This document shows positions 20,957-61,156 of a stretch of DNA of 64,000 nt, piece after piece; the stretch's first letter is position 1, and every line of letters begins with the position of its first letter. Location of the stretch: the NCBI RefSeq assembly GCF_038502225.1, contig NC_091311.1:33741296-33805295 (forward strand), in the 5' to 3' direction. The DNA comes from Cherax quadricarinatus. Its lineage: Eukaryota; Arthropoda; Malacostraca; Decapoda; Parastacidae. The translations under genes and the position numbers were made by a program. The notes beneath the pieces were generated by a model that worked only from the letters and a program-made list of their open reading frames with translations, ran no database searches and was not told the origin of the DNA.

Positions 20957-21661
20957 ATGGGCCCCAAGAAAGCTTCTAGTGCCAACCCTACAGCAATAAG
21001 GGTGAGAATTACTATAGAGATGAAGAAAAAGATCATTGATAAGTATGAAAGTGGAGTGCGTGTCTCCGAGCTGGCCAGGTTGTATAATAAACCCCAATCA
21101 ACCATCGCTACTATTGGTGGTACAGCTGCTGCTGCTGCTGTACCACCGTCAGCTGCTGCTGCTGCTGCACTGTCAGCTGCTGCTGCTGCTGTAGCACTGT
21201 CAGCTGCTGCTGCTGTTGTACCACCATCAGCTGCTGCTGCTGCTGCTGCTGTAGTACCGTCTGCTGCTGCTGTAGTACCGTCTGCTGCTGCTGTAGCATC
21301 GTCTGCTGCTGCTGTAGCACTGTCAGCTGCTGCTGCTGCTGTACCACGGTCAGCTGCTGCTGTAGTACCGTCTGCTGCTGCTGTAGCATCGTCTGCTGCT
21401 GCTGTAGCATCGTCTGCTGCTGCTGTAGCACTGTCAGCTGCTGCTGCTGCTGTACTACCGTCAGCTGCTGCTGCTGTAGTACCGTTTGCTGCTGCTGTAG
21501 CATCGTCTGCTGCTGCTGTAGCACTGTCAGCTGCTGCTGCTGCTGCTGCTGCTGTAGCACAGTTGTTGGTGTGGCTTATTGAGAATACCAAGAAACAATT
21601 AACCCCAGAGGATTTGCCACCCAGGATAACCCAAAAAAGTGTGTCATCGAAGACTGTCTAA
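20957..21661 (+). pseudogene. Tigger transposase N-terminus fused in frame to alanine-rich repeat
   Basis: The ATG at 20957 has the same 'gtgaccATGG' context as the full transposase. Residues 1-53 keep the first HTH ('RVRITIEMKKKIIDKYESGV...SELARLYNKPQSTIATI'). From 21117 to about 21559 a GCT-rich tract inserts roughly 148 residues of Ala/Val/Ser/Pro built from 7-residue units such as AAAVASS (21 bp). The frame then returns to 'LLVWLIENTKKQL', matching residues 87-94 of the 596-aa protein, runs into SINE DNA and stops at 21661. The catalytic domain is missing. It is unusual that the repeat keeps the reading frame on both sides. Confidence 0.75.
21117..21559. repeat. 21-bp GCT-rich minisatellite
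   Basis: Units of the type 'gctgctgctgtagcatcgtc' plus one base, with variants carrying 'gtaccgtct', 'gcactgtca' and 'ccaccatca'. It replaces about 34 codons of transposase between the two helix-turn-helix regions. Confidence 0.9.
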
Positions 21662-21821
21662 CTTATTTCCATTGGGGTCCTTAATCTTGTCTCCCAGGAT
21701 GCAACCCACACCAGTCGACTAACACCCAGGTGAACAGGGAAAAACGCCTGGAACTAGAGCTCATATTGGTGAATTTAAAGCCAGCAAAGGTTGGTTTGAG
21801 AGATTTAAGAATCGCTGTTGC

Positions 21822-21935
21822 TGGATCAGTCAGCTGTTGCTGGACCAGTCAGCTGTTGCTGGACCAGTCAGCTGTTGCTGGACCAGTCAGCTGCTGCTGC
21901 ACCACGGTCAGCTGCTGTTGCACCATCAGCTGTCT
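21822..21935. repeat. 19-bp tandem repeat, about 4 units, then GCT-rich tail
   Basis: The unit 'ctgttgctggaccagtcag' is repeated four times with one substitution in the first, then degenerates into CAGCTGCTG-type sequence. It follows a transposase scrap ending 'GLRDL' in a shifted frame. Confidence 0.85.
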
Positions 21936-22089
21936 CTGAACATGACTCGTCCCGAACCTGTCCGTCCAGCCTGAGCGCCTGCCTTGCCGTCATTGTTTAC
22001 AAGCCAGGGTGGCTGGTTGCATGCATACATTTGATACATTTTGTATTATTCCATTATTTATAGTGCTTGTAACTGCTAAATAAGCCACC

Positions 22090-22690
22090 ATGGGCCCAAA
22101 GAAAGCTTCTAGTGCCAACCCTGTGGTAAAAAGGGCGATAAATACTATCGTACCACAGTCAGCTGCTGCTGCTGCACCATCATGGTCAGCTGTTGATGCA
22201 CCCAGCTGCTGCTGCACCATGGTCAGCTGCACCACAGCTGTTGTTGTTGCTGCACCACCATCAGCTGTATTATTCGAAGATGTGGAGACAGTGTTGTTGG
22301 TGTGGCTTAACGTGAAACAATTACCGAGAAACAATTAACCCCGGAGGGTTAGCCACCCAGGATAACCCAAGAAAGTCAGTGCATCATCGAGGACTCTAAC
22401 TTATTTCCATTGGGGTCCTTAATCTTGTCTCCCAGGATGCAACCCACACCAGTCGACTAACACCCAGATGAACAGGGAAAAATGCCTGGAACTAGTGCTC
22501 ATGTTGGTGAATTTAAAGCCAGCAAAGGTTGGTTTGAGAGATTTAAGAATCGTAGTGACATACACAGTGTGATAAGGCCTGTTCTGGAAGAAAATGCCAA
22601 ACAGGACCTACAGTACTCAGGAGGAAAAGGCACTCCCAGGACACAGTGTCTCATCAGTCATTGCTGCATCTTCAATAAAGGTAAGTGTCA
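22090..22690 (+). pseudogene. Second Tigger transposase start and scraps in the composite
   Basis: ATG at 22090 ('gccaccATGG') gives MGPKKASSANPVVKRA, then a GCT-rich tract (22140-22270) and 'FEDVETVLLVWLNVKQL', equivalent to about residues 80-95. A SINE body follows at the same position as in the first half. A later piece (22482-22620) reads 'EFKASKGWFERFKNRSDIHS', then 'EENAKQDLQYSGG', and is joined to the 3' region with 'cttcaataaaggtaagtgtc' at 22670. The catalytic domain is deleted. Confidence 0.8.
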
Positions 22691-22964
22691 TTTATTCTTC
22701 ATTTAGTAGAGTAGTACATGCACAATATATACTGTGCATGTACTACTCTACTATTGTGCACGTATCCTTCTCTTTGTGTGTAGGAAAATGTATATTTCAT
22801 GTGGTAAAAATTTTTTTTTCATACTTTTGGGTGTCTTGCACGGATTAATTTGATTTCCATTATTTCTTATGGGGAAAATCCATTCGCATAACGATAATTT
22901 CACATAACAATGAGCTCTCATGCACGGATTAATATCATTATGCGGGGGTCCACTGTACAGTTAA

Positions 22965-31511: not shown

Positions 31512-31860
31512 TGGCTAAGTGTGTGTCATAAATGATCTCTGTATTTGTTCAAACTAAGATATTTCTCCTGCCTTGAAGAGTATTATTATTTTTTTTTCAA
31601 GATAATCATTACCCACTCTCATTTTCCAGGCCTTTGTTGTAATGTTTACCTTGCAGTATGTATTCCCTAAATAATAGGCCATCTGACATTATTCCTAAGT
31701 CTTTCACATGTTTAATATCCTATGTTTATTTTGAGTTCTTATTTTTTCCATATATAACTAGTATTTGGAATATGTCAACACAGAACATCATGTTACTGTC
31801 TTTTTCCCACCGAAAGACATTGTTCATATCTATTTGTAATTTTTCTGTTGTCTTTTAGCC
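31512..31860 (-). pseudogene. Old LINE family A-like fragment (upstream part)
   Basis: The minus strand contains 'HVKDLGI' then MSD and upstream 'FRWEKDSNMMF', parallel to 'NVKDLGVIMSEDLTF' and 'FQWAAENNMKF' of the LINE at 826-3033. Stops and shifts are frequent. It pairs with 29860-30300 as one broken element. Confidence 0.55.
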
Positions 31861-32077
31861 CTTGTGCTGTCTGCCATGGAAACTACATCATTGAGGCCAG
31901 TCCCTGATGTAATTCTACATCATGAGCTCAGCTCACTCAGGTAAGCTGTGAGTGTAAATTTTGGGCTAGATATGAGAGAATGGCTCTTTGTGGTGAGTGT
32001 GCACTGTATAAAAAAAAAATCCTGCCCACACAGTATGTGATGGGAAAAATAAAACTGACCGTATGTATGGTTTACAA
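31861..32077 (+). mobile_element. Left-end relic of a CCCTTTCAGGG-subfamily MITE
   Basis: 'gagctcagctcactcaggta', 'gagagaatggctct' and 'aaaaatcctgcccacacagt' parallel 11085-11200. It stops at the TA before the Tigger at 32080. Confidence 0.5.
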
Positions 32078-32079
32078 TA

Positions 32080-33191
32080 CAGTGGGACCCCGGATTTCAT
32101 CCAGTGCAGATATGTGAAGTAAAAGGACACAAGTGCAACTAATGTGACATTTTATTGTGGCAACGTTTCGGTAATGGCTTGATAAAGCTCCTGGAGAGCG
32201 AAACGTTGCCACAATAAAATGTCACATTAGTTGCACTTGTGTCCTTTCACTTCACATATTGTTGGTAATTCTACCAACTTTATTACAGTGCGGATATGTT
32301 ACATAGCACATAAACATGCCTTTGTTACTCATTCACTACGAGTGTCCCTCTAGTCTTAATGCCACAGTAATAATACTAATACTGTACATAATAATCACTC
32401 ATGGGCACATTAAATGTCTTATTTTAGGTTAATATAGACATTTTCATTAATCCAACTATGATATTGTCTTCAAAATTATATAAGAAATGCTATGGATGTG
32501 TGCTAGCCAGGCAGAGGGAAAACATTACATTTTCTCTGGTCCAGCATCGGAGAAAATTTGTACGAGTCTGCGCTGGCCCAGTCACTGCTCTTAATACATA
32601 ACACTTTTGTTTACAATTCTCGGCATGAATTATTCATTACTTCTCCCTTTGTTTATGATGGCATCTAAAGGTAGCTGTTAGAAATGATTAAACTCAAATA
32701 TAGTATGTCGATGGTAATAGCATGGCTATGGGCCACATTAAAAATTGTATATCTAGGATGTGGAAGAGTTGGTGGAGAAATATCACTAACAAAGCTGTTG
32801 AAAGCCGTGTCCTAGTGCCAGTAAAAGACAAAGGGAAGTAACCCCAGATAGGGCTTTGATACCTGAAGTCCTTATGGAGGGGGATTCCCCTTCAAAACAA
32901 TAACCTCTCCTCCCTCTCCCCTCCTCGTCATCTTCCATACGCCAATAAGTCTCTTCAATAAAGGTAAATGTGATTTAAATGTTCATTTATCCATTAAAAT
33001 TAGTCATTTATATTTAAGTCTCATTGTTTTTTGTATGTAAAACTATAGTTATTTTCCATAAAATGTATTTTTTGTTAATATTAATTGGATTTACATTATT
33101 TCATATGGGAAATATTACTTCGGTTTTCATCCATTTCAGATTTCGACCAACCTTCTGGAACGAATTAAGGACAAAAACCAGGGTTCCACTT
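32080..33191 (+). mobile_element. Tigger-like remnant with inserted Penelope-type inverted repeat
   Basis: Left end CAGTGGGACCCCGG after TA; right end ...ACCAGGGTTCCACT. Near 32760-32905 it keeps the last part of a transposase gene ('gtggaagagttggtggagaa', 'aagggaagtaaccccagata', 'atggagggggattccccttc') with stops, then 'cttcaataaaggtaaatgtg' at 32953. An inverted-repeat module occupies about 32100-32290. Confidence 0.65.
32100..32290. repeat. Penelope-type inverted-repeat module
   Basis: 'gtgcaactaatgtgacattt' and its complement flank a core 'ggcaacgtttcgg...gagagcgaaacgttgcc'. The core has a short stem GCTC/GAGC followed by CGAAACG, resembling half of a hammerhead ribozyme. Two other modules in the window (54445-54515 with 56405-56500, and 55157-55290) share the CGAAACGT core. 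Confidence 0.55.
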
Positions 33192-33433
33192 TATCGACCT
33201 TGAGGCATTTTCTCAGACAGTTTTAATGATTTTACTGGCCGTTTCTTGGTATCATTTGATAGAATGGGAGACATGTTATTGAAGTATAGATGATTTTGAA
33301 TGGTTGCAGAATTGGAAGTATGTATTATAGCTGGAAATAGAGCTCAAAATAACAGAAATATTCAATTGCTGCCAATATTCCAGAGGATGGGTTAAGCTTT
33401 CCTACAACCCCAGTCTGTTTTATGGGTTTTCAA

Positions 33434-34361
33434 CCCTTTCAGTGTCCAAATTGATGATTTGAGAATTGCTCTCAGGTCAAAGAATTTAAAAAAAAAAAAA
33501 AAAAATCTTATGAAATGATGGAGAAACTTTTTCTCCATCAGTACAAAATTTAATGGAAAACTTATGGAATTACACTCTCACAAAGTTAGTGATCTCAGCA
33601 ATATTATGCATCGTCGATTTTGCCCACTTTGAGTCCTATTTTAGGCCAATTCCATTGTTCCAGTCGACCAAACTCATAGCTACATCACTATTACTTCTAT
33701 TATATTGATTGAGTACAAGAAACCATCCATTTGCCTACTGCAACACTGTAGACATATCTGATAATAATAAAAAAAAACATTTCCTCTGTTCATTAGTTAC
33801 ATTCCCAGGCCTCTCTTTTGAATTTTTATTTACACAAATAAATAGAAGATTTACTGTTATGTAGATTACTGATTATTGTAATAACTGCATAAATAATGTC
33901 AGTGCATTCCTGAATGCATATTAGACTGACCAGCTGGATGCGTATTGGACGAGTGACATAATTTGTGTACTCTGGAATTGGCAAAAATCGAAAATTTCTG
34001 CTACTTTGAGCTGAATTTCAAGCTATTTTCATTCCTCAAACTAATCAAAATCATCTCTATTTCTGTAATACATTTTCCAATCTATCAAATGAGACCATGA
34101 AAGTGAGAATACAACCATAAGAACCACATGAAAATACACTGCAAAGTCACTGTTTTAAACCAAAAACAGTCACAGTTTTTTCCATCATGCAATGCGTGCT
34201 GCATTGCATAATGGTGCACACCTACTGCATAGACCCATTCTCTCATATCTAGGTCCAAATTTACCGCTCAGAGCTTATCTGAGAGAGCAGAGCTCATCAT
34301 GCAGAACTACTGCACCAACCCGCACTTCAAAGTAGTAGTACTACCATCTACCCTCAAAGGG
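33434..34361 (-). mobile_element. piggyBac-type MITE, minus orientation (928 bp)
   Basis: The minus-strand left end is CCCTTTGAGGGTAGATGG next to TTAA (34362-34365). The other end, CCCTTTCAGTGTCC on the plus strand, is preceded by TTCAA, a decayed TTAA. The interior reads in reverse as the usual family ('gtctcatttgatagattgg' near 34085). Confidence 0.85.
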
Positions 34362-34420
34362 TTAACAGATCTGATTCAAATATTGGGATGCTGTAAACTA
34401 TGACCAATCTTTCTGGGTAT

Positions 34421-34624
34421 ACAGTGGACCCCCGGTTAACGATATTTTTTCACTCCAGAAGTATGTTCAGGTGCCAGTACTGACCGAATTTGTTCCCATA
34501 AGGAATATTGTGAAGTAGATTAGTCCATTTCAGACCCCCAAACATACACGTACAAACGCACTTACATAAATACACTTACATAATTGGTCGCATTCGGAGG
34601 TGATCGTTATGCGGGGGTCCACTG
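34421..34624. mobile_element. 204-bp Tigger-type MITE
   Basis: CAGTGGACCCCCGGTTAACG to ...CGTTATGCGGGGGTCCACTG, with TA on both sides. Its body is shared with 45344, 59887, 60122, 60940 and 61157. Confidence 0.92.
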
Positions 34625-35048
34625 TATTATATTTTCCAAGAAATAGAGTAGATCTTCTATTTTTGTGTGAATAAGAATTCAAAATGGAAGGCAAGTGTAA
34701 TACAGAAGAGGCCTGGGGAAATGACTAATGAACAGAGATGTTTTAGTGCCAGGAATGTCTTCAGTGTATATTATGAACTACAGTGGAACCCTGAGTTTCA
34801 GCAGCTCTGAGTATCGGCCGCTTCGAGTTTCGACCACTTTTTTTGGCTAAAATTTGTCCCGAGTTTCGGCCTGTGCCCCGTGTTTCGGCCAGTGTACCAG
34901 ACCTGTCCGGCTGCCCGCGCAGGTGTCGTGAGCCAATCTAGTTTTGTTTATCTTTGAGTGAACATTACACTGTGCGCTCATCCAAACATTTCACAATAAA
35001 TTCATTGTGTTTAGCGCTTGTTTATTGATTGTGACTGTGAAATCAGCC

Positions 35049-35180
35049 ATGTGCCCAAAGAACTTACTAGTGGCAGCAGCTGAAGCAAGAGCTTCAACTG
35101 GAACATCATCAGACCACAGCTGAGAAACTTACTTCAGAGGAGGAGGAAGAGGGAGTGAAGGAGGTGCCTTCTTCATTGAT
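35049..35180 (+). pseudogene. Tigger-like derivative gene, 5' piece
   Basis: ATG at 35049 reads 'MCPKNLLVAAAEARASTGTS', aligned to the MGPKKASSANP leader of the 596-aa protein. After a frame change it gives 'KLTSEEEEEGVKEVPSSLI', the acidic part that normally precedes the C-terminal helix. HTH and catalytic regions are absent. It stops being Tigger at about 35180, where LINE ORF1 begins. Confidence 0.7.
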
Positions 35181-35947
35181 CAACGATCCAGATACCCTAA
35201 AGATATGCATCTCCACCTTAGTTATTGAAAATATGAATCTTCGAGAGACACTAACAAAACAAGACACCAGGATGACACAACTCGAGAACAAAATCCTCAG
35301 TCTTGAACAAAAGTTATCAACACCAGGAATGACTAACTGTGACAAGACCATCCAAGCAGTCATAGATAGCCATACCCAACAAATAATATCTCTTAATACA
35401 AAGGTTGAAGAAGCAGTAAAAGAATGGAAGAACAACTTAGATAACCAGTTCAGTGACTACTTTGCTCTCCAAGAAGATAAAACTGAACAAGATAAACTAT
35501 CGGACGCAGTAATAGTTAACAGTCCACTTTTTCCCAGTGATATGAACCAAACAAACAGTAAAGAAATTACTCTGCAGATCATAAAGGACCAAACAAGTGT
35601 TATTGTACCAGAGTCTGAAATAAAAGAAGCCAGGTTACTAGGATCCCATGGTAGAAAAAGTGTTATGCTTAGATTCCACTCACATGACAGGAAAAAAGAC
35701 TTAATAATTGCATCTATTAAAGTAAAGAAAGAGGTATACATAAACGAGTGTCTTACCAAAAAACGTCAGAACCTCCTGTATAGAGTCAGAAAACTTAAGC
35801 GGGAGAATAATGACAATACACCAATACTTCACACGGGATGGGAAAATTCTAGTTAGGAAAACAAATGTAGGTCAACTGTACACAATCACAAACGAGAATG
35901 ATCTATCACGATTTCTCAGGGATACTGATCTTACAGAGAATAACTAA
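35181..35947 (+). pseudogene. LINE ORF1 (coiled coil plus RNA-binding-like domain)
   Basis: ORF1 proteins of CR1/L1-like LINEs bind the element RNA and act as nucleic-acid chaperones. Here the first third is heptad-rich and charged ('LTKQDTRMTQLENKILSLEQ'), consistent with a coiled coil. The last third has 'INECLTKKRQNLLYRVRKLK' and, after a one-base shift near 35816-35830, 'YFTRDGKILVRKT' and 'TITNENDLSRFL', typical of the C-terminal domain of such ORF1s. It ends at 35945-35947. The true start was lost: the frame that appears to begin at 35155 includes ten codons of the host Tigger. The shift makes it non-functional. I know of no other host role. Confidence 0.7.
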
Positions 35948-36205
35948 ATGTCCAACCTAAAAGCCTACGTAATGTAGTGTATGTTTTGCTCCATTATTGT
36001 TCAAATCTCCTAGTACAATCTCTTAGTAATTAAATAATCAACTACCTCATTTTGTGATTTTACTAGTAAGCATAAGTCACCTTATCTAATTTTCTTATTT
36101 ACTATTGTTTGCTTAAATATTAGCTGAATCGATACTTTCTCTGTCCATATTACTACCTATTTTTTTAAATACTATCAATTGATATTATTTTTTATTTATT
36201 ATTAT

Positions 36206-37010
36206 CACACCGGCCGATTCCCACCAAGGCAGGGTGGCCCGAAAAAGAAAAACTTTCACCATCATTCACTCCATCACTGTCTTGCCAGAAGGGTGCTTTA
36301 CACTACAGTTTTTAAACTGCAACATAACACCCCTCCTTCAGAGTTTACTTTTCCGGCCTGCCGGTTTCCCTGAATAAATGTTACTTTGCTCATACTACGC
36401 ATCAATTGACTACAGACTATACACTCTTGAAGTCATTCTGTTTCGCTCCACTTAGCCCTCTGGACAACAGTTTTGGTAATCTCCTCCTAAAATATTCACA
36501 CCACACATTGCCCTCAGACATAATCTCCACTGCCTCCAAACATTCATCACCCACGCTTCACACCCATACGTTGGTAAAACTATACTCTCATACATTCCCC
36601 TCTTTGCCTTTTTTGTCTCCACAGACTCCTAAGTGCACCACTCACTCTTTTTCCCTCATCAATTCTATGATTCACCTCATCTTTCATAGACCCATCCGCT
36701 GATCCACTCCCAAATATCTGAATACATACTCTCTCCCTCCATTGATATTCAATCTTTCACTAATCTTTTTGTTATCCTCATAACCTTACTCTTTCCTGTA
36801 TTCACCTTTAATTTTCTTAACTCCCAAGAGCACAGTTTTTTTGTGTGTGATTCTTTATCTTTTAACTCCACGACCCTCGCATTTACTTCTCTTATTATAA
36901 TAATTAACCACGGTGACATCACTTTGTCTAATACTACCTCTACATACTCTAGAGCCTTTCCTCGTAAAAACTCTTCACCTTTCACATTACACCATACACT
37001 TGCATCTTAG
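36206..37010 (-). mobile_element. RTE LINE fragment with internal deletions
   Basis: The right-hand 3' UTR ('cggccgattcccaccaaggc') is at the left. On the minus strand the coding scraps are 'VMSPWL', 'REVNARVVELKDKESH' and 'LRKLKVNTGKSKVMRITKRL'. The catalytic FADD block and most of the C-terminus are missing. Inserted between ORF1 and ORF2 of the LINE. Confidence 0.75.
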
Positions 37011-37690
37011 AGTAAATCTCTTAATCTAAATACTGTTCACTTATATGTTTCACTGCACCTGGTCCAAATAACCTCAATCCTATTCTCCGTATAATTCTAC
37101 CTAGGTGCAATTTTTTGCAAATACAAAGAAATGCATGCTCTCTGCCAATCCCTATACCTACCCTTTTACATTTATTAAATAATTGCACTTATTTGCTTTT
37201 AACATTTCTATCTTTATCCCATCAATCCCAGTAATCATTCATTACACTTACAACTAAAAGATTTATTCCTCCTTGCCCTATACACGAAATCACAGCTTCC
37301 CTATCACCATTTATTCAAAATACTACTTCCCAATACCTCTAACTCTCCATTTAATAACTCTCCTCTCCTATTTTTAACTGACAAATCAAGGCTTTTTACT
37401 TTTAATCTCACTCCAAAACTTTTTCTTATTTTCAACAAAATTTGTACATTAATCATTATTTTATACTTCCCATAACATTTTGTTGCCAAATTTCCAAGTT
37501 TGTATATTCAACTCCAACCTTTATATTATCCTTTGTACCTGTGTACCTGTGTATCTGTGTACCTGTCTACCATCTTACTATCATATTATAACCAAGACAT
37601 TGCCATTGTTATTTTTTAATTATTCTTTTGGTACTTTAATTTGTGAATTTTATTTTGTCAATTTAAATCTAGTTATACTCTTGATCTTGT
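37011..37690. other. LINE inter-ORF region or older RTE sequence
   Basis: AT-rich, C-biased plus strand with no open frame of note. It may hold the rest of the RTE insertion (for example 'ctttatcccatcaatcccag' near 37212), but I cannot fix a boundary. A short 'gtacctgtgtacctgtgtat' repeat lies near 37535. Confidence 0.4.
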
Positions 37691-38395
37691 CAACAACCTA
37701 TACCAGACCCTAGTGCAATTGCAAGTACCATTTCAATTTGTATTTTTATATTATAAGTTTATATTATAAGTCCTATTCTAAGATTGTTTTCATATCTTAG
37801 TGACTATATTGTGTGTGCAAATAGTGTATATTTCAATTATATTATTGTTCAAGGCCCTTAACTATCTTTTGCTAACTAGTACCAACTACCTCATATATTT
37901 TTTTTTTCTACTTTTTTTATTATTTTGCTACCTTAACTTGCATATTTTATCTTGTCAATTTAAATCTAGTTATACTCTAATTCTTGTAAACAACTTATAT
38001 AAGACCTTAGTGCAATTACAATTGAGAGTCTTGTGCCTTTTTTATATCATTAGATTAAACTCAGTTGTACTATAGCTCATTCTAGCTCAATACATAGTCA
38101 ATACCAAATTCATTATATTAGACCATAGTGTAATTACTAGTGAGAGTCTGGTGCTATTTTTAATTTGTATTTTTATATTATTAGATTAAACCTAGTTGTA
38201 CTATAGCTCATTCTAGCTCAATACATAGACTATACCAAAGTCATTACATTAGACCTTAGTGCAATTACAAGTGAGAGTCTTGTGCTATTTTTAATTTGTA
38301 TTTTTATATTATTAGTTTATACCTAGTTGTACTTTAGCTCATTCCAGCACAACACATAGACAACACCAACTCCATTATGTGTATTAGTGACTATA
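37691..38395 (+). repeat. LINE inter-ORF tandem repeats, 131-141 bp unit
   Basis: Three units carry 'ttgtactatagctcattcta' at 38065, 38196 and (variant) 38337, with 'gaccttagtgcaattacaa' preceding. A weaker copy starts near 37700. Tandem repeats between ORFs or in the 5' UTR of LINEs often hold promoter activity; that role here is only inferred. Confidence 0.75.
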
Positions 38396-41317
38396 CTCTA
38401 CATGACCAAAATGCTATAAATATATACTTGTCCAAACTTCCCACCACTACAGATATCAGTACTAAAACTCAACCCACAACTCAAGATATAAATAACCATA
38501 ATTTAAACCTAGAAGATGATTGATCACGTTGACCCTGATCTAAACCTCCATAATCTGACACACAATCAAAACCTATTGGAAAGTAACTGCCTTTACTACA
38601 CAGCATCACAAGCCAGTACTATCCTAAACAATGCTAAAAGTCTATCAGTACGTACTTAACTACAACATCAGGTCCTTAAGCAAACACTATGATACCTCCT
38701 GGCACTCCTTGAATCACTAAAGACACTCTTCTCCTGCATTATTCTTACTGAGACCTGGCTTAAGCAGGACATAATAGATATCTACCCTCTACCAGGATAC
38801 ACAGCAATCCACAACTGCAGACCATACTAAGCTCGGGGTGGTATTGCAATCTATTACTCTAACCAATTATCTTGTATTAGCACCACTTGCTTTAGTGATG
38901 AATATGGAGAATACATTTTTGCTAATTTTACTGTAAAAAACCTTAAGACGCCTATAACAATCGGTGCCATTTACCGGATACCCCACACAAACATCCCAAA
39001 TTTCAGTGAGAAACTAAAGGCACTAATAACAAACAGACAAATGAATAAGCACCACCTTCTCTTAGCTGGAGACTTCAACATCAACCTTGGCCTACTAGAT
39101 GATCAGCCTGTAACTGATTTCATCAACAATATGAACAACACACTTCTCATACCAACAATAACTAAACCAACCAGGCTCACTGAAACGAGTGCAACCATAA
39201 TAGACCACATATGGACCAATATACTAGCCCCCCTTAAATCAGGGATAATCACAGATAGCACTACAGACCACTACCCTACCTTCCTCTTGACAAACATTAG
39301 TAAACCACCACTTGAATACAACAAAGTTTCATTTAGACTCCATGATGAGGCCTCAATAAGGAAGTTCACAGCTGACCTAGAGACTGTTGACTGGCCTACA
39401 GAATTCTCCAAGGCCAATGGTATTGACGACTGGGCAGACATTTTTCTTAACAAATTACTTAGACTATACAACAAACATTGTCCTATAAAAACGAAACAGA
39501 TCACAAACAAACGGCTTGGTTGCCCATGGCTAACCAGCACCATTCTGAAATCCATTGATAAGAAACACCAATATGAAAAGCAATATAGACAGGGCTTAAT
39601 ACACAAAGATATTCTTAAACACTATTCATCAGTCCTCACCAAAGTAATAAAGAAAGCCAAACAACTATACTACTCCAGTAGATTCACTGACACAAGAGGA
39701 GATATAAAAAAGACCTGGAAAACACTCTCTCAGATTCTAGGGACCCAAAAACTGAAAAAAAACAAGAATATTGCCCTAACTAAACCTAATGAAACACCAC
39801 TGCATCCCACTGACACAGCTAACAAGATAAACGACTTCTTCTCAACCATAGGTTCTAATCTCGCCAATAAAATCCCACGCACCAATGCCCATGCCGGGGA
39901 CTACCTAGATGGGAATTTCCCAAATTCCTTCTATCTTGCTCCAACTGAGCCCATGGAAGTCACCGAGATTATAAAGTCACTTAAAAATAATTCAGGGAAT
40001 CTGTCTCATGTCCCACCATTATTGTACAAGAGAGCGGCCCATGTCCTCTCGCATGCTATCTCATTACTTTTTAACAAGTCACTAGAAACTAGCACCTTCC
40101 CGAAACTACTCAAGACGGCAAGGGTTACACCAATACATAAAGGTGGTGACCCTACAGATTTAAACAACTATAGGCCAATATCAAACTTACCATTGCTATC
40201 CAAAATCTTTGAGAAACTCGTGCACAGGAGACTATATTCATTTATAACGGCACAAAACATACTCAACCCCTGCCAATTTGGATTCAGGAAAAATAAAAGC
40301 ACTAACGATGCAATCATAAAAATGCTAGATCTGCTTTACACAGCATTGGAAAATAAGGAATATCCGCTAGGAATTTTTATTGACCTAAGAAAAGCTTTTG
40401 ACACAGTAGACCACGGCATCCTACTCCACAAACTTGACCATTATGGTATAAGAGGCCATGCGCTTGCATATTTCAAATCTTACCTTACTAATAGGTATCA
40501 GTATGTCACCATTAAAGACACAGCATCAACAACACAGCCACTTGATACTGGAGTTCCGCAGGGAAGTGTCCTTGGTCCCCTGCTCTTCCTCATATACATC
40601 AATGATCTTCCAAACGTATCTCAACACCTGAACCCCATTCTCTTTGCTGACAACACGACTTATGTCATCTCTCACCCTAATCTTGCCACCCTCAACACCA
40701 TTGTTAATGAGGAGCTGATCAAAATATCGACTTGGATGACAGCCAATAAACTTACACTTAACACTGACAAAACCTACTACATTATGTTTGGTAGCAGAGC
40801 AGGAGATGTGCAAATTAACATTAAGATCGACAACACTCTAATTGCCAGGCATAATGAGGGCAAATTCCTAGGCCTATACCTCGACAACAACCTGAACTTC
40901 AGCGCCCATATCCAACACATAACCAAAAAAGTATCCAAAACGGTTGTGATCCTCTCCAAGATACGATACTACGTGCCGCAAACTGCCCTTCTCACACTAT
41001 ACCATTCACTTATACAGTGGACCCCCGCATACCGTTGGCATCACATAACGTTAAATCCGCATACCGTTGGCATCACGTAACATTAAATCCGCATACCGCT
41101 ACATTTTATCGCCAAGATTTTGCCTCGCATACCGCTAAAAAACCCGCTCAACGCTGTTCGTCCGAGACGCGTCTAATGTGCGCCCTTACCCAGCCTCACA
41201 TGTTCCGCTGGTGGCATTGTTTACCAGCCAGCCTCCGCGGTAACATCAAAGCATACAATCGGAACATTTCATATTATTACAGTGTTTCTGGTGATTTTAT
41301 CTGCAAAATAAGTGACC

Positions 41318-43108
41318 ATGGGCCCCAAGAAAGCTTCTAGTGCCAACCCTACAGGAATAAGGGTGAGAATTACTATAGAGATGAAGAAAGAGATCATTGA
41401 TAAGTATGAAAGTGGAGTGCGTGTCTCCGAGCTGGCCAGGTTGTATAGTAAACCCCAATCAACCATCGCTACTATTGTGGGCAACAAAAAGGCAATCAAG
41501 GAAGCTGTTCTTGCCAAAGGTTTAACTGTGTTTTCGAAACAGAGATCGCAAGTGATGGAAGATGTTGAGAGACTCTTATTGGTGTGGATAAATGAGAAAC
41601 AGATAGCAGGAGACAGCATCTCTCAAGTGATCATAAGTGAAAAGGCTAGGAAGTTGCATCAGGATTTAATTAAAAAAATGCCTGCAACTAGTGATGATGT
41701 GATTGAATTTAAGGCCAGCAAAGGTTGGTTTGAGAGATTTAAGAGGCGTAGTGGCATACATAGTGTGATAAGGCATGGTGAGGCTGCCAGTTCGGACCAC
41801 AAAGCAGCTGAAAAATATGTGCAGGAATTCAAGGAGTACATAGAAACTGAAGGACTGAAACCTGAACAAGTGTTTAATTGTGATGAAACAGGCCTGTTTT
41901 GGAAGAAAATGCCAAGCAGGACCTACATTACTCAGGAGGAAAAGGCACTCCCAGGACATAAGCCTATGAAAGACAGGCTTACTCTGTTGATGTGTTCCAA
42001 TGCTACTGGTGATTGCAAAGTGAAGCCTTTATTAGTGTATCACTCTGAAACTCCCAGACCGTTCAGGCAAAAGAATGTCCTCAAGGAAAATTTGTGTGTG
42101 CTGTGGAGGGCAAACAGTAAGGCATGGGTCACTAGGGACTTTTTCTATGACTGGTTACACCATGCATTTGCCCCCAATGTGAAAGATTACCTAACTGAAA
42201 AGAAATTAGAACTTAAGTGCCTCCTGGTGTTAGACAATACCCCTGGTCATCCTACAGACGTGGCAGAGCGACTTTATGGGGACATGAAATTCATTAAGGT
42301 GAAGTTTTTGCCTCCTAATACCACTCCTCTCCTGCAGCCCATGGACCAGCAGGTTATTGCAAACTTCAAAAAACTGTACACAAAAGCTCTGTTTGAAAGG
42401 TGCTTTGTAGTGACCTCAGAAACTCAACTGACTCTAAGAGACTTTTGGAGAGATCACTTTAATATCCTCAATTGTGTAAACCTTATAGGTAAGGCTTGGG
42501 AGGGAGTGACTAAGAGGACCTTGAACTCTGCTTGGAAGAAACTGTGGCCAGAATGTGTAGACCAAAGGGATTTTGAAGGGTTTCAGGCTAACCCTGAGAA
42601 TCCTATGCCAGTTGAGGAATCCATTATGGCATTGGGAAAGTCCTTGGGGTTGGAGGTTAGTGGGGATGATGTGGAAGAGTTGGTGGAGGAGGACAATGAA
42701 GAACTAACCACTGATGAGCTGATAGATCAACTTCAACAGCAAGAGGCCAGACCTGAGGAAACTGGTTCGAAGGAGGGGAGAGAGAAATTGAAGAAATTGC
42801 CTACTACAAAGATTAAGGAAATCTGTGCAAAGTGGCTTGAAGTGCAAACCTTCATGGATGAAAATCACCCTCACACAGCTATTGCAAGCCGTGCTGGTGA
42901 CTATTACACTGACAATGTTGTGAAACACTTTAGGGAAGTCATAAAGGAACGAGAGGTACAGGCCACTATGGACAGATATGTTGTGCGACAGAACTCCAGT
43001 GACTCTGAAGCTGGTCCTAGTGGCATTAAAAGAAGAAGGGAAGTAACCCCAGAAAAGGACTTGACACCTCAAGTCTTAATGGAAGGGGATTCCCCTTCTA
43101 AACACTAA
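41318..43108 (+). CDS. Tigger/pogo transposase, full length (596 aa)
   Basis: A DDE/D transposase that binds the terminal repeats and moves the element by cut and paste into TA. ATG at 41318 lies in a strong 'gtgaccATGG' context and is shared by relatives. The frame is intact for 596 codons. Residues 15-60 form the first CENP-B/Psq-like HTH ('RITIEMKKEIIDKYESGVRV'), about 80-145 the second ('VERLLLVWINEK', 'ASKGWFERFKRR'), about 165-390 the catalytic core. D189 (VFNCDETG), D306 (LLVLDNTPGHP) and D343 (LLQPMDQQV) give DD36D spacing, with 'LPPNTTPLLQPMDQ' typical of Tigger. The tail has an acidic stretch (450-490), a helix 'TKIKEICAKWLEVQTFMDE' and a basic 'GIKRRREV'. It most resembles the TIGD1-like branch. 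All visible catalytic residues are present, so activity is plausible; no promoter was tested. Confidence 0.95.
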   Translation: MGPKKASSANPTGIRVRITIEMKKEIIDKYESGVRVSELARLYSKPQSTIATIVGNKKAIKEAVLAKGLTVFSKQRSQVMEDVERLLLVWINEKQIAGDSISQVIISEKARKLHQDLIKKMPATSDDVIEFKASKGWFERFKRRSGIHSVIRHGEAASSDHKAAEKYVQEFKEYIETEGLKPEQVFNCDETGLFWKKMPSRTYITQEEKALPGHKPMKDRLTLLMCSNATGDCKVKPLLVYHSETPRPFRQKNVLKENLCVLWRANSKAWVTRDFFYDWLHHAFAPNVKDYLTEKKLELKCLLVLDNTPGHPTDVAERLYGDMKFIKVKFLPPNTTPLLQPMDQQVIANFKKLYTKALFERCFVVTSETQLTLRDFWRDHFNILNCVNLIGKAWEGVTKRTLNSAWKKLWPECVDQRDFEGFQANPENPMPVEESIMALGKSLGLEVSGDDVEELVEEDNEELTTDELIDQLQQQEARPEETGSKEGREKLKKLPTTKIKEICAKWLEVQTFMDENHPHTAIASRAGDYYTDNVVKHFREVIKEREVQATMDRYVVRQNSSDSEAGPSGIKRRREVTPEKDLTPQVLMEGDSPSKH

Positions 43109-43151
43109 CACACTCTCCTCCTCCCATCCCATCAATCATCACCAGATCTTC

Positions 43152-43165
43152 AATAAAAGTAAGTG
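43152..43165 (+). promoter_or_regulatory. Poly(A) signal overlapping a 5' splice-site-like motif
   Basis: AATAAAAGTAAGTG lies 43 bases after the Tigger stop codon. AATAAA is the standard polyadenylation hexamer; (A/G)GTAAGT right behind it fits a U1 donor site. The same pairing occurs at about 5165 (complement), 8867, 22675, 32957 (GTAAAT) and 48796. Confidence 0.6.
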
Positions 43166-44206
43166 TCATGTAATTGTGCATGCCTTTTTCAGTTTGTATG
43201 TATTAAAATTAATATTTCATGTGGTAAAATTTTTTTTTTTTCATACTTTGGGGTGTCTTGCACGGATTAATTTGATTTCCATTATTTCTTATGGGGAAAA
43301 TTCATTCGCATAACGATAATTTCGCATAACAATGAGCTCTCTTGCACGGATTAATATCGCTATGCGGGGGTCCACTGTATATCCATACCTCACCTATGCT
43401 ATATGTGCTTGGGGTTCAACTGCAGCAACACACCTAAAGCCAATAATAACCCAACAAAAAGCCGCAGTAAGAATAATCACTAAATCCCATCCCTGGCAAC
43501 ACACCCCCCCACTCTTCATAGATCTAAACTTACTCCCTGTTCAGTACATCCACACTTACTACTGTGCAATCTACATCTACAGGACCTTAAATTCCAATAT
43601 TAACCTTGACCTAAAACGCTTTCTTGATAGTTGCGACAGAACCCACAGGCACAATACCAGACACAAACATCTCTATGACATTCCCCGTGTCCGACTAAAC
43701 CTTTACAAAAGTTCAATGTATGTGAAAGGCCCTAAAATCTGGAACACCCTACCTGAAAATTCTAAAACTGCAGACACATTCATCACCTTCAAAACTACCA
43801 TCAGAAAACATCTTATCTCCCTGATACACCCTGTCAACTAATTACCCGAATACCACCTGGTGGTTAACACTTACACTCACTCACCCATTTGACCATAAAC
43901 AGAAATATTAATCTCAATCTTAAAATAATGAATCCTATGATACTCCAATACTGAAACTATGTACTGTGCCAAAACAAAAGCATTCACATTGCTAAACTCA
44001 CAAACTAGTATTTAGTCACTTAGCCATAATACCAACTTACCTCATAATTTTGTAATATTTTAAACTTAAGATTTAATTTAAGTCTGCCCAAAATGCCTAG
44101 TCATGCTAGGTGTTCTAGTGGTACACTCTGTAATTATTATTTTACTACATGTAAACAATACAATAACCAAATTCTGTAAACTCAGCATTGTAATCCTTAT
44201 AGAGAA

Positions 44207-44503
44207 TTAAGGACATGTGTGGAATGTGGAATGAGTTGCAAAGTTTTGTGGAAAAATACCACCCAGCAAGCTGAAACAAGCCATCTCTGCAACATGTTCC
44301 ATGACAATACAATGTCCCATTTTAAGCAAATCTTAGAGAGACACAAGAAACAGAGCAATCTTGAAAGTTATTTTGTGCGACAGGGGTCCAGTGACTCTCA
44401 AGCTGGTCCTAGTGGCATTAAAAGACAAAGAAGGGATGTAACCCCAGATGAGGACTTATTACCTAAAGTCTTCATGGAAGGGGATTTTCCTTCCAAACAA
44501 TAA
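44207..44503 (+). pseudogene. Tigger-like derivative gene, 3' piece
   Basis: Continues the gene cut at 35180: 'IKDMCGMWNELQSFVEKYHP' (from 44207), then after a shift 'MFHDNTMSHFKQILERHKKQ' and 'SYFVRQGSSDSQAGPSGIKR' to 'MEGDFPSKQ' and a stop at 44501-44503. It aligns with residues 499-596 of the full transposase. Its 3' region contains 'cttcaataaaagtaca' at 44550 and ends at the terminal repeat (44810). Confidence 0.8.
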
Positions 44504-45343
44504 GTCCTCTCTCTCTCCTCCTCCATATCTTCCAGGTGCCAGCAAGACTCTTCAATAAAAGTACATAAATGTGATTTTTTAAATGTTTATTTATGAACTG
44601 TATTACTCATTTAAGTACTATGTGTATGTTTTAAGTACTATATATATGTTAAACTATAGTTATTCTTCAAAAATGTATTTTTTGTGAATATTTTTGTGGG
44701 TCTTGTATTTACATTAATTCTTATGGGAAATATTGCTTCAACTTTAACCCGTTTCCAGTTTAGGCCTAGCTCCTGGAACGGATTATGGCCGAAACTTGGG
44801 GGTTCCACTGTATTTTTAAATAGGAATTTTTTTCATTGTGTTAAATTGGCCAAATTACCAAATTAATTGCACTTTATAGGGTAACTGAAATACAGTGGAA
44901 CCTCTATTTGTGAGTTTAATCCGTTCCATGACCTTGCTCGCAACTGGATTTACTCGTTTGCAGAGTCAATTTTCCTCATTTAAATTAACTGAAATGCAAT
45001 TAATCCATTCCAGTGGAATTCTGTACTTCAATAATTTTGCTATTATCAACTCTACGGCTTATTCATTTATCTCACTTCATCTAATATGACATATTAAACA
45101 ATATAAATAATATAGAAACCTGATATATACTCTAAAACGAATGAAATATGTCATTCATGTAGTGGTATGGGCGGTGTCGGCGGTGGACGAGAGTTTGTCA
45201 GGAGACCGGGCAAAATACTTCATGAATAATTTTGCTAATATCATCTATACGGCTTATTTATCTATCACAGTTCATCTAATATGACATAACAAACAATATA
45301 AATATCATAGAAACATGATATATACTTTTGAATGAATAAAATA

Positions 45344-45532
45344 CAGTGGACCCCCGGTTTACGATATTATTTCATTCCAGAAGTATGTTCAGGTGCCATT
45401 ACTGAATGAGTTTGTTCCCATAAGGAATATTGTGAATTAGATTAGTCCATTTCAGACCCCCAAACATACACGTACAAACGCACTTACATAATTGGTCGCA
45501 TTGGGAGGTGATCGTAAAGCGGGGGTCCACTG
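45344..45532. mobile_element. 189-bp Tigger-type MITE
   Basis: CAGTGGACCCCCGGTTTACG to ...CGTAAAGCGGGGGTCCACTG with TA flanks. Same family as 34421-34624, slightly shorter. Confidence 0.92.
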
Positions 45533-45824
45533 TATACTCTAGAATGAATAAAATATGTCATCATGTAACAGGTGGAGGCGGCCACAACCGCTCCCTCTTT
45601 GTTGTGGTAAACACTGCCATCTAGTGACAACCTTCTGAAGCTGTGTATTATTATAATTATATGTAGTACATTATTGTTATATATGTATTATTATTATACA
45701 TATTATTAATATGATTATTATTGTATTATATTATTATACTATTATTATTATACATATTATTATTATACATATTATACATATTATTATTATTATTATTATT
45801 ATTATTTTTTTTTTCCAACAAGTC

Positions 45825-46045
45825 GGCCGTCTCCCACCGAGGCAGGGTGACCCAAAAAAGAAAGAAAATCCCCAAAAAGAAAATACTTTCATCATCATTC
45901 AACACTTTCACCACACTCACACATTATCACTGTTTTTGCAGAGGTGCTCAGAATACAACAGTTTAGAAGCATATACGTATAAAGATACACAACATATCCC
46001 TCCAAACTGCCAATATCCCAAACCCCTCCTTTAAAGTGCAGGCAT
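45825..46045 (-). mobile_element. RTE LINE 3' end
   Basis: 'cggccgtctcccaccgaggc' followed by the RTE 3' UTR in reverse, ending near 'ccctcctttaaagtgcagg'. It is preceded by an (ATT)n/T-rich run, a frequent context for RTE 3' tails. Confidence 0.65.
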
Positions 46046-46738
46046 TGTACTTCCTATTTCCGGTGGCTAATTTTTGTGAAGTGAACTCCATTATTTATGC
46101 TTAGATTTCTTTCATTTTTGGTGATCGTTAAGAAGCATCTTTCCATCATACATTGCCCAAGTTTCAATAAGATAGTCCAACAAACAAATGAGATACAATT
46201 CCCAAGATCAAGAGCAAGAGTCCCTCACCAGTGTCAAGGAACCTGCCTTGAGGTCTGCTTGCTTGTGGAAATTTTGCTCGCATGTGGAAGCAAAAAATCG
46301 ACCCATCGACTGCTCGTATTTGGAAAAACTCACACATGGACACACTCGCAAGTAGAGGTTCCACTATAGTTGATTGGGTGCTTTTTTTTGTGCTCAATTG
46401 ATAAAACAGAAGGCATATTAGCAAAATGGCTAAGAATCAGGTCAAATGGAACATCAGAATTGGCTCAAAATAGGACTCAAAGTGGGAGAAATCGCTGATG
46501 CATAAACTGGGCCAAGACCGCCAACTTTGCACCTTCCTAATTCTGTAAATTTTTCATTAAATTTCGTATTTCTGATGTCATTACGTTCAGAAAAAGATTC
46601 TCTACCATTTCAGAATATTTTTTTTTTAAAGTGGACAACAGATCAATACGAAAGTAACTCTCCAATGTTGTTGGATGTGTATCAGACCAATGAACATACG
46701 CCGGCCTGCTATCTTCCACCACCCTAAACCTCTGCCAG

Positions 46739-49047: not shown

Positions 49048-49533
49048 TATTTTCGTATAGTTTTTATGGTTATATTCTCAGTTTCCTGGTCTCACTTGAT
49101 AGAATGGAAAATATATTACAGAAATGCAGATGATTTTGATTTGTTTCTGGAGTAAAAGTAGCTTGAAATTGAGCTCAAAGTAGTAGAAATGTTCGATTTC
49201 TGCTGACATTCTAGAGTACACAAATTATGTTGCTCGTCCAATAAGCATCCAACTGGTTGGTCTAATATGAGTACACAAGTGCGCTGACATTATTTATACA
49301 ATTAATACAATAATGCAGTAGTCTGCATAACATTAAATCTTCTATTTTCCGTGTGAAAAAAATCAAAATGGAAAGCAAGTGTAACATAGGAGAAGCCTGG
49401 GGACTAAACTAATGAACATGGAAAATGTTCTTTTTTTAGTGCCAGGAATGTTTTTAAATTTGCAATTTTTTTAATTTTGTCTGAAACTGGCCAAACTGCC
49501 AATTTCTGATCACTTTACTGGGTAGCTGAAATA

Positions 49534-50975
49534 CAGTGGACCCTCTGTTTTTGTAATTAATCCATTCCAGAAGGTTAGCCTAAATCCAAAATGGCCAAGA
49601 ACTGAAGCAATATTTCCCATAAGAAATAATGTAAATCAAATTAATCCATTTCAGACACCCAAAAATATTAACAAAAAATAAATTTTATAGAGAATAACTA
49701 CAGTGTTGCAGCTCTTCAGTGGTTAGTACATTCATTACTTACCTTAAAATATTTGTAGTCACAATGTAGAGAGAGAGGTGAGTAGTATTTATTTGTAGGA
49801 AGTTGGTGTAGGTAGCCAGTAGATGTAGGTACACATATATAGTCCCTCTGGGCTACACCTGGCTACCTACACTGCAGAATACAGCCACATTACCACCATC
49901 GACATACCATGTTCACCGAGTTTAATCATTTCTAACAACTCTTTAGATGCCATCATAAACAAAAGGAGAAATAATGAGCAATTCATGCCGAGAATTACAA
50001 ACAAACGTGTGTTAAGGGCGGTGACTGGGCCAGACGCCAGATTCACAGTTTTATCTAACACTCAACCAGAGAAAACGTAATGTTTACCCTCCACCCGACT
50101 CACCACTCGATAGCATATAAACATTGCATGTTTATATGCTGTGTATATATGCTATATGCTATGTAACGTGTTTCTTATATAATTTTGAAGAAAATATTAA
50201 AGATGGATTAATGATAATGTCTATATTAATCTAAAATAATTAATGTGCCCAAGAGTGATTATTATTAAACATACATCACATATAAACATTGCATGTTTTT
50301 ATATACATTGGTACCTCGAGTTTCGAACAGCTCCTAACTCAAACAATTATGTAAGTATATTTTTGTAAGTGCTTTTGTAAGTGTATTTCTGGGGGTCTGA
50401 AATGGACTAATTTAATTTACATACATCATTCCTTATAGGAACAAATTCATTCGGTAATGGCACTCGAACAGCCTTCTGGAACAAATTAAGTTTGTAACTC
50501 GAGGTACCACTGTACTATGTAACGTGTTTCTTATATAATTTTGAAGAAAATATCAAAGATGGATTAATAAAATTGTTTATATTAGCCTAAAATAAGAAAT
50601 TTAACGTGCCCAAGAGTGATTATTATTGCGCATTAGTATTATATCTACAGGGTTAAGACTAGAGGGACACACTTAGTGAACAGTGAATGAGTAATAAAGG
50701 CATGTTTATGTGCTATGTACTAATGTGTATCTTCTATAATTCTGAAGAAAATATCATAGATGGACTAATGAAAATGTCTATACATATTAACCTAAAATAA
50801 GACATTTAAAGTGCCCAAGAGTGTCATGAATGTACGAGTGGCCCAGGTGAATGCGTCTGGTATCAACAATTTCCGAGCAGATGCACGAAATCCGGGGGGA
50901 AATTTTGCCGGGAAAAAAGTGCTCGATTTTCAAATTGGCCAATTTCCGCACTAGCTGAAAACTGGGGGTCTGCTG
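49534..50975. mobile_element. Tigger/pogo-like element, 1.44 kb
   Basis: CAGTGGACCCTCTGTTTTTG and ...AAAACTGGGGGTCTGCTG with TA on both sides. The inside has a 'cttaccttaaaatatttgta' site (49738), as in the CAGTAGGG family, and two to three tandem variants of 'ttcttatataattttgaaga' (50170, 50528, 50732). A 207-bp MITE lies within it. Confidence 0.75.
50306..50512. mobile_element. 207-bp Tigger-type MITE (GGTACC ends)
   Basis: CATTGGTACCTCGAGTTTCG to ...AACTCGAGGTACCACTG, TA flanks. Sister of the MITE at 335-537. Confidence 0.85.
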
Positions 50976-51289
50976 TAGTTAAATAGGCGGTTTCTTGTAC
51001 TCAATCGATAGAATGAAAGACATTCTAGCAAAATATCTAAATGTTTTGTCGACTGGAACAATGGAATTAGCCTAAAAGAGGACTCAAAGTGGGCAAAATT
51101 GCCAATGCATGAACATTGCTGAGACTGCTAAATTTGGGAGTGTAATTCTGTAAGTTTTCCACCAAATTTCGTACTTTTGGTTTCATTACTTTCGAGAAAA
51201 AAAATTACTCACCATTTTTTTTTTTTTTTTAAAATCTTGGACCCTGAGAGCAATTTTCAGATCGGGAGTCTCGACTCTGAAAGGGTTAA

Positions 51290-55579: not shown

Positions 55580-56404
55580 TCAGGTTAAGTCACGGGTGTT
55601 CTGAAGTTTGGAGCAATTTACAATGTAGTGGGAGAGGAAGGCATCTACAGAGACGAAGCCAGGGCTAAGGTTCATACAAGGAAAGTTGTGTATTAGAGAG
55701 GATTCAACTAGACGGCGACTGTTCGAGTTGGAAGTAGGGAAGACAGTTTTAGCAGAAGACCAGTCAATAGGATGGCTATGATCTCTGACGTGACAGAAAA
55801 GAGCATTGTTAGTGTCGGCAAGCCTAACACTATTTTTGTGCTCCCTAAGTCTGTCAGAAAGAGATCGACCAGTTTCTCTGAAGTATTGAAGAGGACAGGA
55901 GGAGCAAAAAATAGAGTAGACACCAGGAACATCTGTAGAGGGAGGAGAGGTATGAACGAGATTAGTGCGAAGAGTGTTAGTCTGGCGGAAGGTAAGCTTG
56001 ATGTCTAAGGGACGGAGAGAATTGTTGAGATTAGAAAGACCGGAAATGTAGGGAAGGCAGAGGATAGAAGAGTTCCCATGAGTAGAGAGTTTGGGAGAGA
56101 AGAAATTGCATTTAGCACGTGAGAGGGTAGAGTCTATGAAATGGGAAGGGTAGCCAAGACGGGAGAACGAATTATGAAGAGTGGAAATTTCTGCTGGAAG
56201 GAACCGAGGATCACAGATGCGGAGGGCATGGAGAAAGAGGGAGATAAGAACACTTTTCTTGACAGGGGAAGCATGATAGGAAAAGTAGTGAATGTACATG
56301 CCACTGTGCATAGGTTTATGGTAAACGGAAAAGAAAAAACCTGTATCTGAGCGGTGGACATGGACATCAAGGAAAGGAAGCAAAGAATTAGATTCCCATT
56401 CAGC
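55580..56404 (-). pseudogene. Penelope-like element: RT tail plus GIY-YIG endonuclease
   Basis: Penelope-like elements encode an RT followed by a GIY-YIG nuclease that opens the target. The minus strand from 56404 reads 'SLLPFLDVHVHR', 'FSVYHKPMHSGMYIHYFSY' and 'LFLHALRICDP', the last RT and thumb region. After a spacer ('LSNLNNSLRPLDIKLTFRQ') the nuclease follows: 'GVYSIFCSSCPLQYFRETGR', 'LSDRLREHKNSVRL' and 'ALFCHVRDHSHPIDW'. The usual YIGET is YFRET here, which would damage the second half of the GIY-YIG core. Stop at 55580-55582. The RT core is missing, so the copy is dead. It is flanked by inverted terminal modules at 54445 and 56412. Confidence 0.88.
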
Positions 56405-56505
56405 TTTGTCAATGGTCCAAGTCGGACCGAAACGTCGTCGTAAGCTTCTCTCTTTTATGTGCGGGTTATTTGTGTATCGTTCCAGTCACGATATTGTGCC
56501 TTTTT
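56405..56505. repeat. Penelope-type terminal module, right
   Basis: 'caatggtccaagtcggaccg' then AAACGTCGTCGTAAGC, followed by 'tatgtgcgggttatttgtgt'. Inverted relative to the left module; adjoins the RT fragment directly. Confidence 0.65.
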
Positions 56506-59884: not shown

Positions 59885-59886
59885 TA

Positions 59887-60089
59887 CAGTGGACCCCCGG
59901 TTTACGATCAGCTCCCAATGCGACCAATTATGTAAGTGTATTTATGTAAGTGCGTTTGCATGTGTATGTTTGGGGGTCTGAAATGGACTAATCTAATTCA
60001 CAATATTCCTTATGGGAACAAATTCGGTCAGTACTGGCACCTGAACATACTTCTGGAATGAAATAATATCGTAAACTGGGGGTCCACTG
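59887..60089. mobile_element. 203-bp Tigger-type MITE, cluster copy 1
   Basis: CAGTGGACCCCCGGTTTACG to ...CGTAAACTGGGGGTCCACTG, TA flanks, in a TA/TATG-rich stretch. Confidence 0.93.
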
Positions 60090-60121
60090 TACATGTATAT
60101 GTATATGCATGTATATATATA

Positions 60122-60324
60122 CAGTGGACCCCCGCTTAACGATCACCTCCAAATGCGACCAATTATGTAAGTGTATTTATGTAAGTGCGTTTGTACGTGT
60201 ATGTTTGGGGGTCTGAAATGGACTAATCTACTTCACAATATTCCTTATGGGAAAAAATTCGGTCAGTACTGGCACCTGAACATACTACTGGAATGAAAAA
60301 AGTTCGTTAACCGGGGGTCCACTG
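60122..60324. mobile_element. 203-bp Tigger-type MITE, cluster copy 2
   Basis: CAGTGGACCCCCGCTTAACG to ...CGTTAACCGGGGGTCCACTG. Practically identical to copy 4, which lies 833 bp away. Confidence 0.93.
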
Positions 60325-60329
60325 TATTC

Positions 60330-60480
60330 TTCTTTCAACACACCGGCTGTATCCCACCGAGGCGGGGTGGCCCAAAAGGAAAAACGAAAGTTTCTTCTTT
60401 TACATTTAGTAATATATACAGGAGAAGGGGTTACTAGCTCCTTGCGCCTGGCATTTTATCGCCTCTTACAACAAGCATGG
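60330..60480 (-). mobile_element. RTE LINE 3'-end fragment
   Basis: 'acaccggctgtatcccaccg' again, followed by UTR-like sequence ('ttactagctccttgcgcctg'). Downstream bases to about 60780 are unassigned. Confidence 0.6.
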
Positions 60481-60794: not shown

Positions 60795-60877
60795 ATGTAT
60801 GTATGTATGTATGTATGTATGTGTATATATGTATGTGTATATATGTATGTGTATGTATATATGTATGTGTATATATG

Positions 60878-60939: not shown

Positions 60940-60942
<3 letters not shown>

Positions 60943-61142: not shown

Positions 61143-61156
61143 TATATATATATATA

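Follow-up and report, generated by a model that had tools for sequence, protein, structure and literature searches.

The stretch of DNA analysed here (the window; 64,000 bases of Cherax quadricarinatus contig NC_091311.1, positions 33,741,296 to 33,805,295 of the forward strand) is repeat-dense animal DNA, in which a nest of transposable elements interrupts a piggyBac-type element, hereafter the host. Three plus-strand pieces of the host, at 34640-34780, 44813-44892 and 46369-46633, were recognized by their match to other family copies and by junction tests, the first also by its register. Between the first and the second pieces sits Tigger-B (34781-44810, plus strand), which carries a long interspersed nuclear element (LINE; about 35180-44206, plus strand). 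The LINE in turn carries the 3' fragment of an RTE element (36167-37024, minus strand) and a complete Tigger element, the inner Tigger (41015-43377, plus strand). The second and the third host pieces are separated by a second insert (44893-46366, plus strand), which holds a miniature inverted-repeat transposable element (MITE; 45344-45532) and an RTE 3' end (45820-46060, minus strand). The main chain, running from the host through Tigger-B and the LINE to either the RTE fragment or the inner Tigger, has four levels, and the other branch, from the host through the second insert to its MITE or RTE end, has three. The presence of nested elements is confirmed and the interpretation in an initial annotation, made from the letters of the sequence, is supported in most parts; its "five-layer nest" counted elements, whereas the depth is four.

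The host belongs to a family with several long copies in the window, those on the plus strand beginning at 9944, 15030 and 22961 and one on the minus strand occupying 33434-34361, with lengths of about 0.93-1.08 kb. DNA-level comparisons, here and below, used copies inside the window. The three host pieces follow the order of the uninterrupted copies: 34647-34778 corresponds to 10461-10600, 44813-44892 continues from there, and 46384-46627 corresponds to 10700-10943. The ends of family copies read TTAACCCTTTGA...TCAAAGGGTTAA or near variants, and the sibling copies have TTAA targets and CCC... terminal inverted repeats, some with one-base variants. In addition, an element at 3241-4644 contains pieces of a piggyBac-type transposase; its ends are similar to those of the family, with which it shares the 5' end region at 88% over 128 bases and the 3' end region at 84% over 83 aligned bases. 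Of its two open reading frame (ORF) pieces with a DDE_Tnp_1_7 match, one is above the curated cut-off and the other slightly below. These ends, and the end regions common to the transposase-bearing element, indicate that the host family is a non-autonomous piggyBac-type element. Like non-autonomous members of the piggyBac superfamily, it combines TTAA with CCCTTTGA-type ends; the focal host itself differs in that its left site is TTAG and its right end with TTAA was not located. At about 1.08 kb, the family is longer than a typical MITE.

Inspection of the boundaries revealed Tigger-type ends that read CAGTGG...CCACTG with TA on either side. All six of the Tigger-type elements listed within 32080-46366 have TA flanks and terminal inverted repeats, in agreement with the annotated TA duplication at each such boundary. 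Four of the six junctions, those of Tigger-A (an element in the left part of the locus, described below), Tigger-B, the second insert and the inner Tigger, were subjected to an empty-site test, in which the two flanks, rejoined through one TA, were compared by alignment with uninterrupted copies in the window. The net gap was 0 in every alignment spanning the join: in four of five references for Tigger-A (31859-32079 joined to 33194) and likewise for Tigger-B, the fifth being non-spanning in each case; in five of five for the second insert, one of these having only seven left-side bases; and in both LINE copies for the inner Tigger. Other host copies with inserts, at the window start and at 49 kb, gave a net gap of 0 in five of five references each. 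The flanking pieces had been said to rejoin once the inserts are removed, and they do so at these four Tigger-type junctions at the DNA level and at the LINE junction at the protein level. Such joins also bear on whether unrelated repeat copies were brought together in assembly, as might be feared from the dense repeats and from the contig N50 of 144 kb of one published C. quadricarinatus assembly (PMC10106460). The breaks coincide with the ends of elements and are flanked by TA on either side, and the host, once rejoined, is collinear to the base with its siblings, which is not expected from chimeric joins; we regard an assembly artefact as exceedingly improbable.

Tigger-B, defined by its ends and by the reading across the join, is about 1.0 kb long without its insert and is flanked by TA at 34779-34780 and 44811-44812. 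Its transposase is internally deleted, since only 311 bases precede the position corresponding, by alignment, to residue 470 or so in related transposases. Upon removal of the LINE, the join of position 35179 to position 44207 reads LQLEHHQTTAEKLTSEEEEEGVKEVPSSLIKDMCGMWNELQSFVEKYH, and the Tigger-B reading over it is ...VPSSLIKDMCGMWNELQSFVEKYH; the frame shifts soon after the join, according to the translations. This removal was checked at the protein level, in place of a DNA copy, using 242 proteins as tblastn queries (120 from a Tigger search and 122 from two LINE searches). The Tigger-B reading without the LINE spans the join in 96 of the 101 tblastn rows, 38 of them ungapped.

The LINE was assigned by its domains, by protein identity and by its junctions. 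Its second reading frame (ORF2) contains endonuclease and reverse transcriptase domains (RVT_1, Exo_endo_phos_2 and Exo_endo_phos) and is split by the inner Tigger. It is 5'-truncated, as its start falls inside ORF1 (NDPDTLK..., compared to P0241). Against C. quadricarinatus proteins, the ORF1 piece has 95% identity over 88% of the query and the N-terminal piece of ORF2 has 96% identity over 39% of the query. Upstream of 38831, comparison with P0121 by eye showed ORF2 to be disrupted by at least one frameshift and one stop. Two sister LINE copies run slightly further at the 3' end. Upstream of ORF2, positions 38039-38377 form a tandem array of 131-base units in 2.6 copies.

Within the LINE, the RTE fragment was recognized by matches to an RTE element at 17-18 kb. 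Its edges, annotated initially at 36206-37010, are approximate, and the alignments support its presence at 36167-36396 and 36492-36818, matching 18012-18272 and 17313-17699 with Kimura two-parameter (K2P) distances of 0.045 and 0.044 to that RTE. A possible 8-base repeat, TAAATACT, flanks the fragment on both sides, as a weak sign given that the sequence is AT-rich. The fragment is probably a true insertion into the LINE.

The inner Tigger lies in ORF2 of the LINE with TA at 41013-41014 and 43378-43379, as judged from its ends, its Pfam domains and the junction test. Its transposase frame (41312-43108) is open, in line with the annotation of an intact element, and encodes a protein with DDE_1, HTH_Tnp_Tc5 and CENP-B_N domains and a catalytic spacing of DD36D; the published range of Tigger/pogo elements is DD29-36D (PMC7386202). 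Over its full length, the protein shares 94% identity with a C. quadricarinatus protein named "tigger transposable element-derived protein 1-like". It resembles the Tigger family of the pogo superfamily in TA targets, short inverted ends, Pfam domains and DD36D, and no distinctive feature was found in it. The open frame suggests that its family was mobile recently.

The second insert, found by the end scan and the junction test, has Tigger/pogo-type ends, with CCACTA at the right end and TA at 44891-44892 and 46367-46368. Its MITE is of Tigger type by its ends, with TA at 45342-45343 and 45533-45534. Its RTE 3' end, identified from sequence, is strongly diverged, with a K2P of 0.319 to 18012-18250 over 160 aligned bases. 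The second insertion and its two contents had been annotated in the same way. Just beyond the RTE end, 46066-46193 carries a short repeat that recurs at 18273-18400 and 19137-19267 with 83-87% identity; at 18.4 and 19.3 kb it adjoins pieces of the piggyBac-type family. The label "RTE tail" for sites 18402 and 19269 is unsupported, as the neighbouring 18273-18400 is similar to 46066-46193 as well, which lies outside the RTE end, and both sites were left uncounted.

Another nest lies in a sibling host copy at 49050-51289. The left of this copy bears the 3' end of a Tigger-type element, and positions 49534-50975 are a Tigger-type insert of 1,442 bases, inside which is one more MITE-like element (about 50306-50512). 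The 1,442-base insert uses the same host TA as the second insert of the focal host. Such a coincidence of site and of size (1,442 versus 1,474 bases) might mean that the host moved as a composite already bearing one or more inserts, in which case an insert could predate the arrival of the host at this site. However, apart from their end sequences and a MITE-like stretch the two inserts are unlike, which suggests separate events; simulations with seven insertions yield one shared site in 31% of cases; and no two host copies of the window were seen to share an insert of one kind at one site. A composite origin appears very improbable.

The host probably starts further left than in the initial annotation, at 31859. 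There, TTAG is followed by CCCTTGTG..., the putative 5' end (31859-32079, plus strand), which matches the family copies and closes in the TA used by Tigger-A. The three annotated pieces are in order and their piggyBac assignment fits; they would form the right part of a longer element. Tigger-A (32080-33191, plus strand), which lies outside the annotated coordinates, is a Tigger-type element without a complete transposase, identified by its ends and by TA at 32078-32079 and 33192-33193; over 413 aligned bases, its 3' part and that of Tigger-B share 74% identity. Also within it, at 32102-32298, is a long near-perfect hairpin, with flanks that by eye appear to be CAGTGCAGATATG and CAGTGCGGATATG. 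The host continues on the plus strand at 33194-33385 in the register of the family copies. It is followed by a block at 33386-34639 without a clear assignment, which holds a full-length minus-strand piggyBac-type copy (33434-34361; flanks TCAA and TTAA; recognized by host-family match and end scan) and a Tigger-type MITE (34422-34624) with TA on both sides. This MITE is similar to four copies at 59.9-61.4 kb, with 96-97% identity to three of them and 94% to one.

The remainder of this block consists of 117 non-family bases in place of the approximately 107 host bases expected (the step in the references is 108-109). As a candidate for diverged host sequence these bases were rejected by shuffle comparisons, in which their scores were reached by 8% to 99% of shuffles in 25 local comparisons and by 41% to 97% of shuffles in four global comparisons of 124 bases. 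A similarity that does not exceed that of shuffles would fit an arrangement in which 31859-33385 on the left and 34640-46633 on the right derive from two different host copies. By contrast, strand and order agree between the two parts, and only about 107 of the approximately 1,080 family bases are missing between them. We consider two separate copies somewhat unlikely; the segment left of 33386 would probably be part of the same host copy.

Nesting gives the order of insertion along each chain only, and not between siblings, namely the RTE fragment and the inner Tigger or the direct inserts of the host. The annotated claim that relative ages follow directly is therefore valid along each chain and does not extend to siblings. 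Divergence was estimated from K2P medians of three-point terminal branches, given without standard errors: 0.142 and 0.265 for the host pieces; 0.210 for Tigger-B, from distant relatives only; 0.043 and 0.051 for the LINE; 0.033 and 0.034 for the RTE fragment; and 0.022, 0.035 and 0.058 for the inner Tigger. Outside the main chain, the branches were 0.155 for the minus-strand piggyBac-type copy, 0.012 for the MITE at 34422-34624 and 0.047 for the MITE at 45344-45532. The coarse contrast between the outer elements (host and Tigger-B, 0.14-0.27) and the inner ones (LINE, RTE fragment and inner Tigger, 0.02-0.06) is clear. Dating the layers by divergence, as had been suggested, separates the outer from the inner group without ordering the elements inside either.

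We propose that successive independent transpositions in a repeat-dense crayfish genome explain the arrangement, an explanation that we consider very probable. A non-autonomous piggyBac-type element would have arrived first and then decayed, and Tigger-type elements would have been cut and pasted into TA dinucleotides of this host. One of them, Tigger-B, would later have taken the 5'-truncated LINE, which would then have taken an RTE 3' piece and, separately, a complete Tigger with an open transposase frame. The inserts may have persisted because dead elements offer a neutral landing ground.

Several observations weigh against such a simple succession, among them the 117 non-family bases described above. 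No clear target-site duplication was found at the LINE junctions, with one or two bases assignable at most. The window has no uninterrupted copy of the LINE region bearing the RTE fragment, whose edges are thus without comparison, making the RTE layer the least tested. A scan for the right end of the host between 46633 and 51278, allowing at most one mismatch, found none, and the alignments of its 3' end stop at 46639-46655, resting on a T-run. Moreover, divergence does not order the host and Tigger-B, whose 0.210 falls between the two host values, and one inner Tigger piece of three, at 0.058, is above both values of the LINE and so looks older than it. An earlier version of the junction test also spoke against the simple reading, with steps of -1 in four of four references at Tigger-A, of 3 in three of four and 212 in one at Tigger-B, and of 0, -10, -301 and -491 at the second insert. 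That version used flank edges that were off by a few bases; the test reported above is a repeat with corrected edges, joined flanks and one extra reference, and was not blind.

The frequency of Tigger-type insertions in piggyBac-family copies was also considered. Seven insertions in such copies, at 333, 11285, 32078, 34779, 44891, 49049 and 49532, three of them in the focal host, represent seven of 16 outside an array at 60-61 kb and seven of 20 including it, in a window where the family covers 8,538 of 64,000 bases (13.3%) and 639 of 5,029 TA dinucleotides. The four array insertions may stem from duplication. The end scan from which the insertions were listed had 20 left-type rows and 22 of the right type. 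Rows dropped by eye as chance or duplicate hits were 15860 and 22956 on the left and 28714, 32008, 35880 and 43424 on the right. Row 61628 was not given a count separate from that of the array, the retained left ends 9334 and 26138 start with CA instead of TA, and 4779 and 49049 are right ends only. With assumed target fractions of 0.133 to 0.25, the binomial P was 0.003-0.08 for seven of 16 and 0.012-0.21 for seven of 20; an earlier calculation with 14 insertions gave smaller P at equal fractions. As the test was chosen after the data had been seen and the hosts were assigned by hand, enrichment is not accepted as shown. The idea that copies of this piggyBac-type family are a preferred landing ground of Tigger-type elements in the genome, which draws on these counts and on the one TA position used by two different Tigger-type elements in two sibling copies, seems quite improbable. 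Clustering of insertions at certain host positions was rejected by simulation (P of 0.31 for the same-site pair and 0.27 for close pairs).

Elsewhere in the window, the array at 59885-61361 consists of four Tigger-type MITE copies beside TA-rich simple repeats, one pair having a K2P of 0.005. A Tigger element at 20687-22957 has simple-repeat expansions in its coding part, with a LINE on its left and a piggyBac-type copy three bases off on its right; by eye, its right flank does not continue the LINE of the left flank. A minus-strand ORF of 301 residues at 55580-56485, without a Pfam match at E 0.01, resembles the end of a Penelope-like element. A search of the entire window against Rfam at gathering thresholds gave zero matches, as did a scan of IMG/VR by DNA pattern; IMG/VR scans with the Tigger and the LINE proteins gave three pattern-matching stretches each, none confirmed.

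In the published C. quadricarinatus genome, repeats account for 78.69%, with LINEs at 42.60% and DNA elements at 13.27% (PMC10106460). It is established that insertion order can be read from nesting and that age estimates agree with it (REANNOTATE, PMC2672092; mammalian interruption analysis, PMC2517846). The present locus resembles the nested clusters obtained by defragmentation with REANNOTATE and Transposon Cluster Finder in that older elements are broken by younger ones. Those clusters come from cereal, human and other mammalian genomes, whereas ours is one crayfish locus, resolved by hand, made up mainly of DNA transposons and without dates based on long terminal repeats. A survey of decapod repeats (PMC10454600) does not mention Tigger, piggyBac, nested, TcMar or RTE in its main text, and crayfish are unmentioned among the listed matches of a literature search combining Tigger, piggyBac and MITE. 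The locus is a further instance of an established pattern, with no new mechanism, and it provides a clear worked example from a crayfish in which the order can be checked: a piggyBac-type element, Tigger-B, the LINE, and then the RTE fragment and the intact Tigger.

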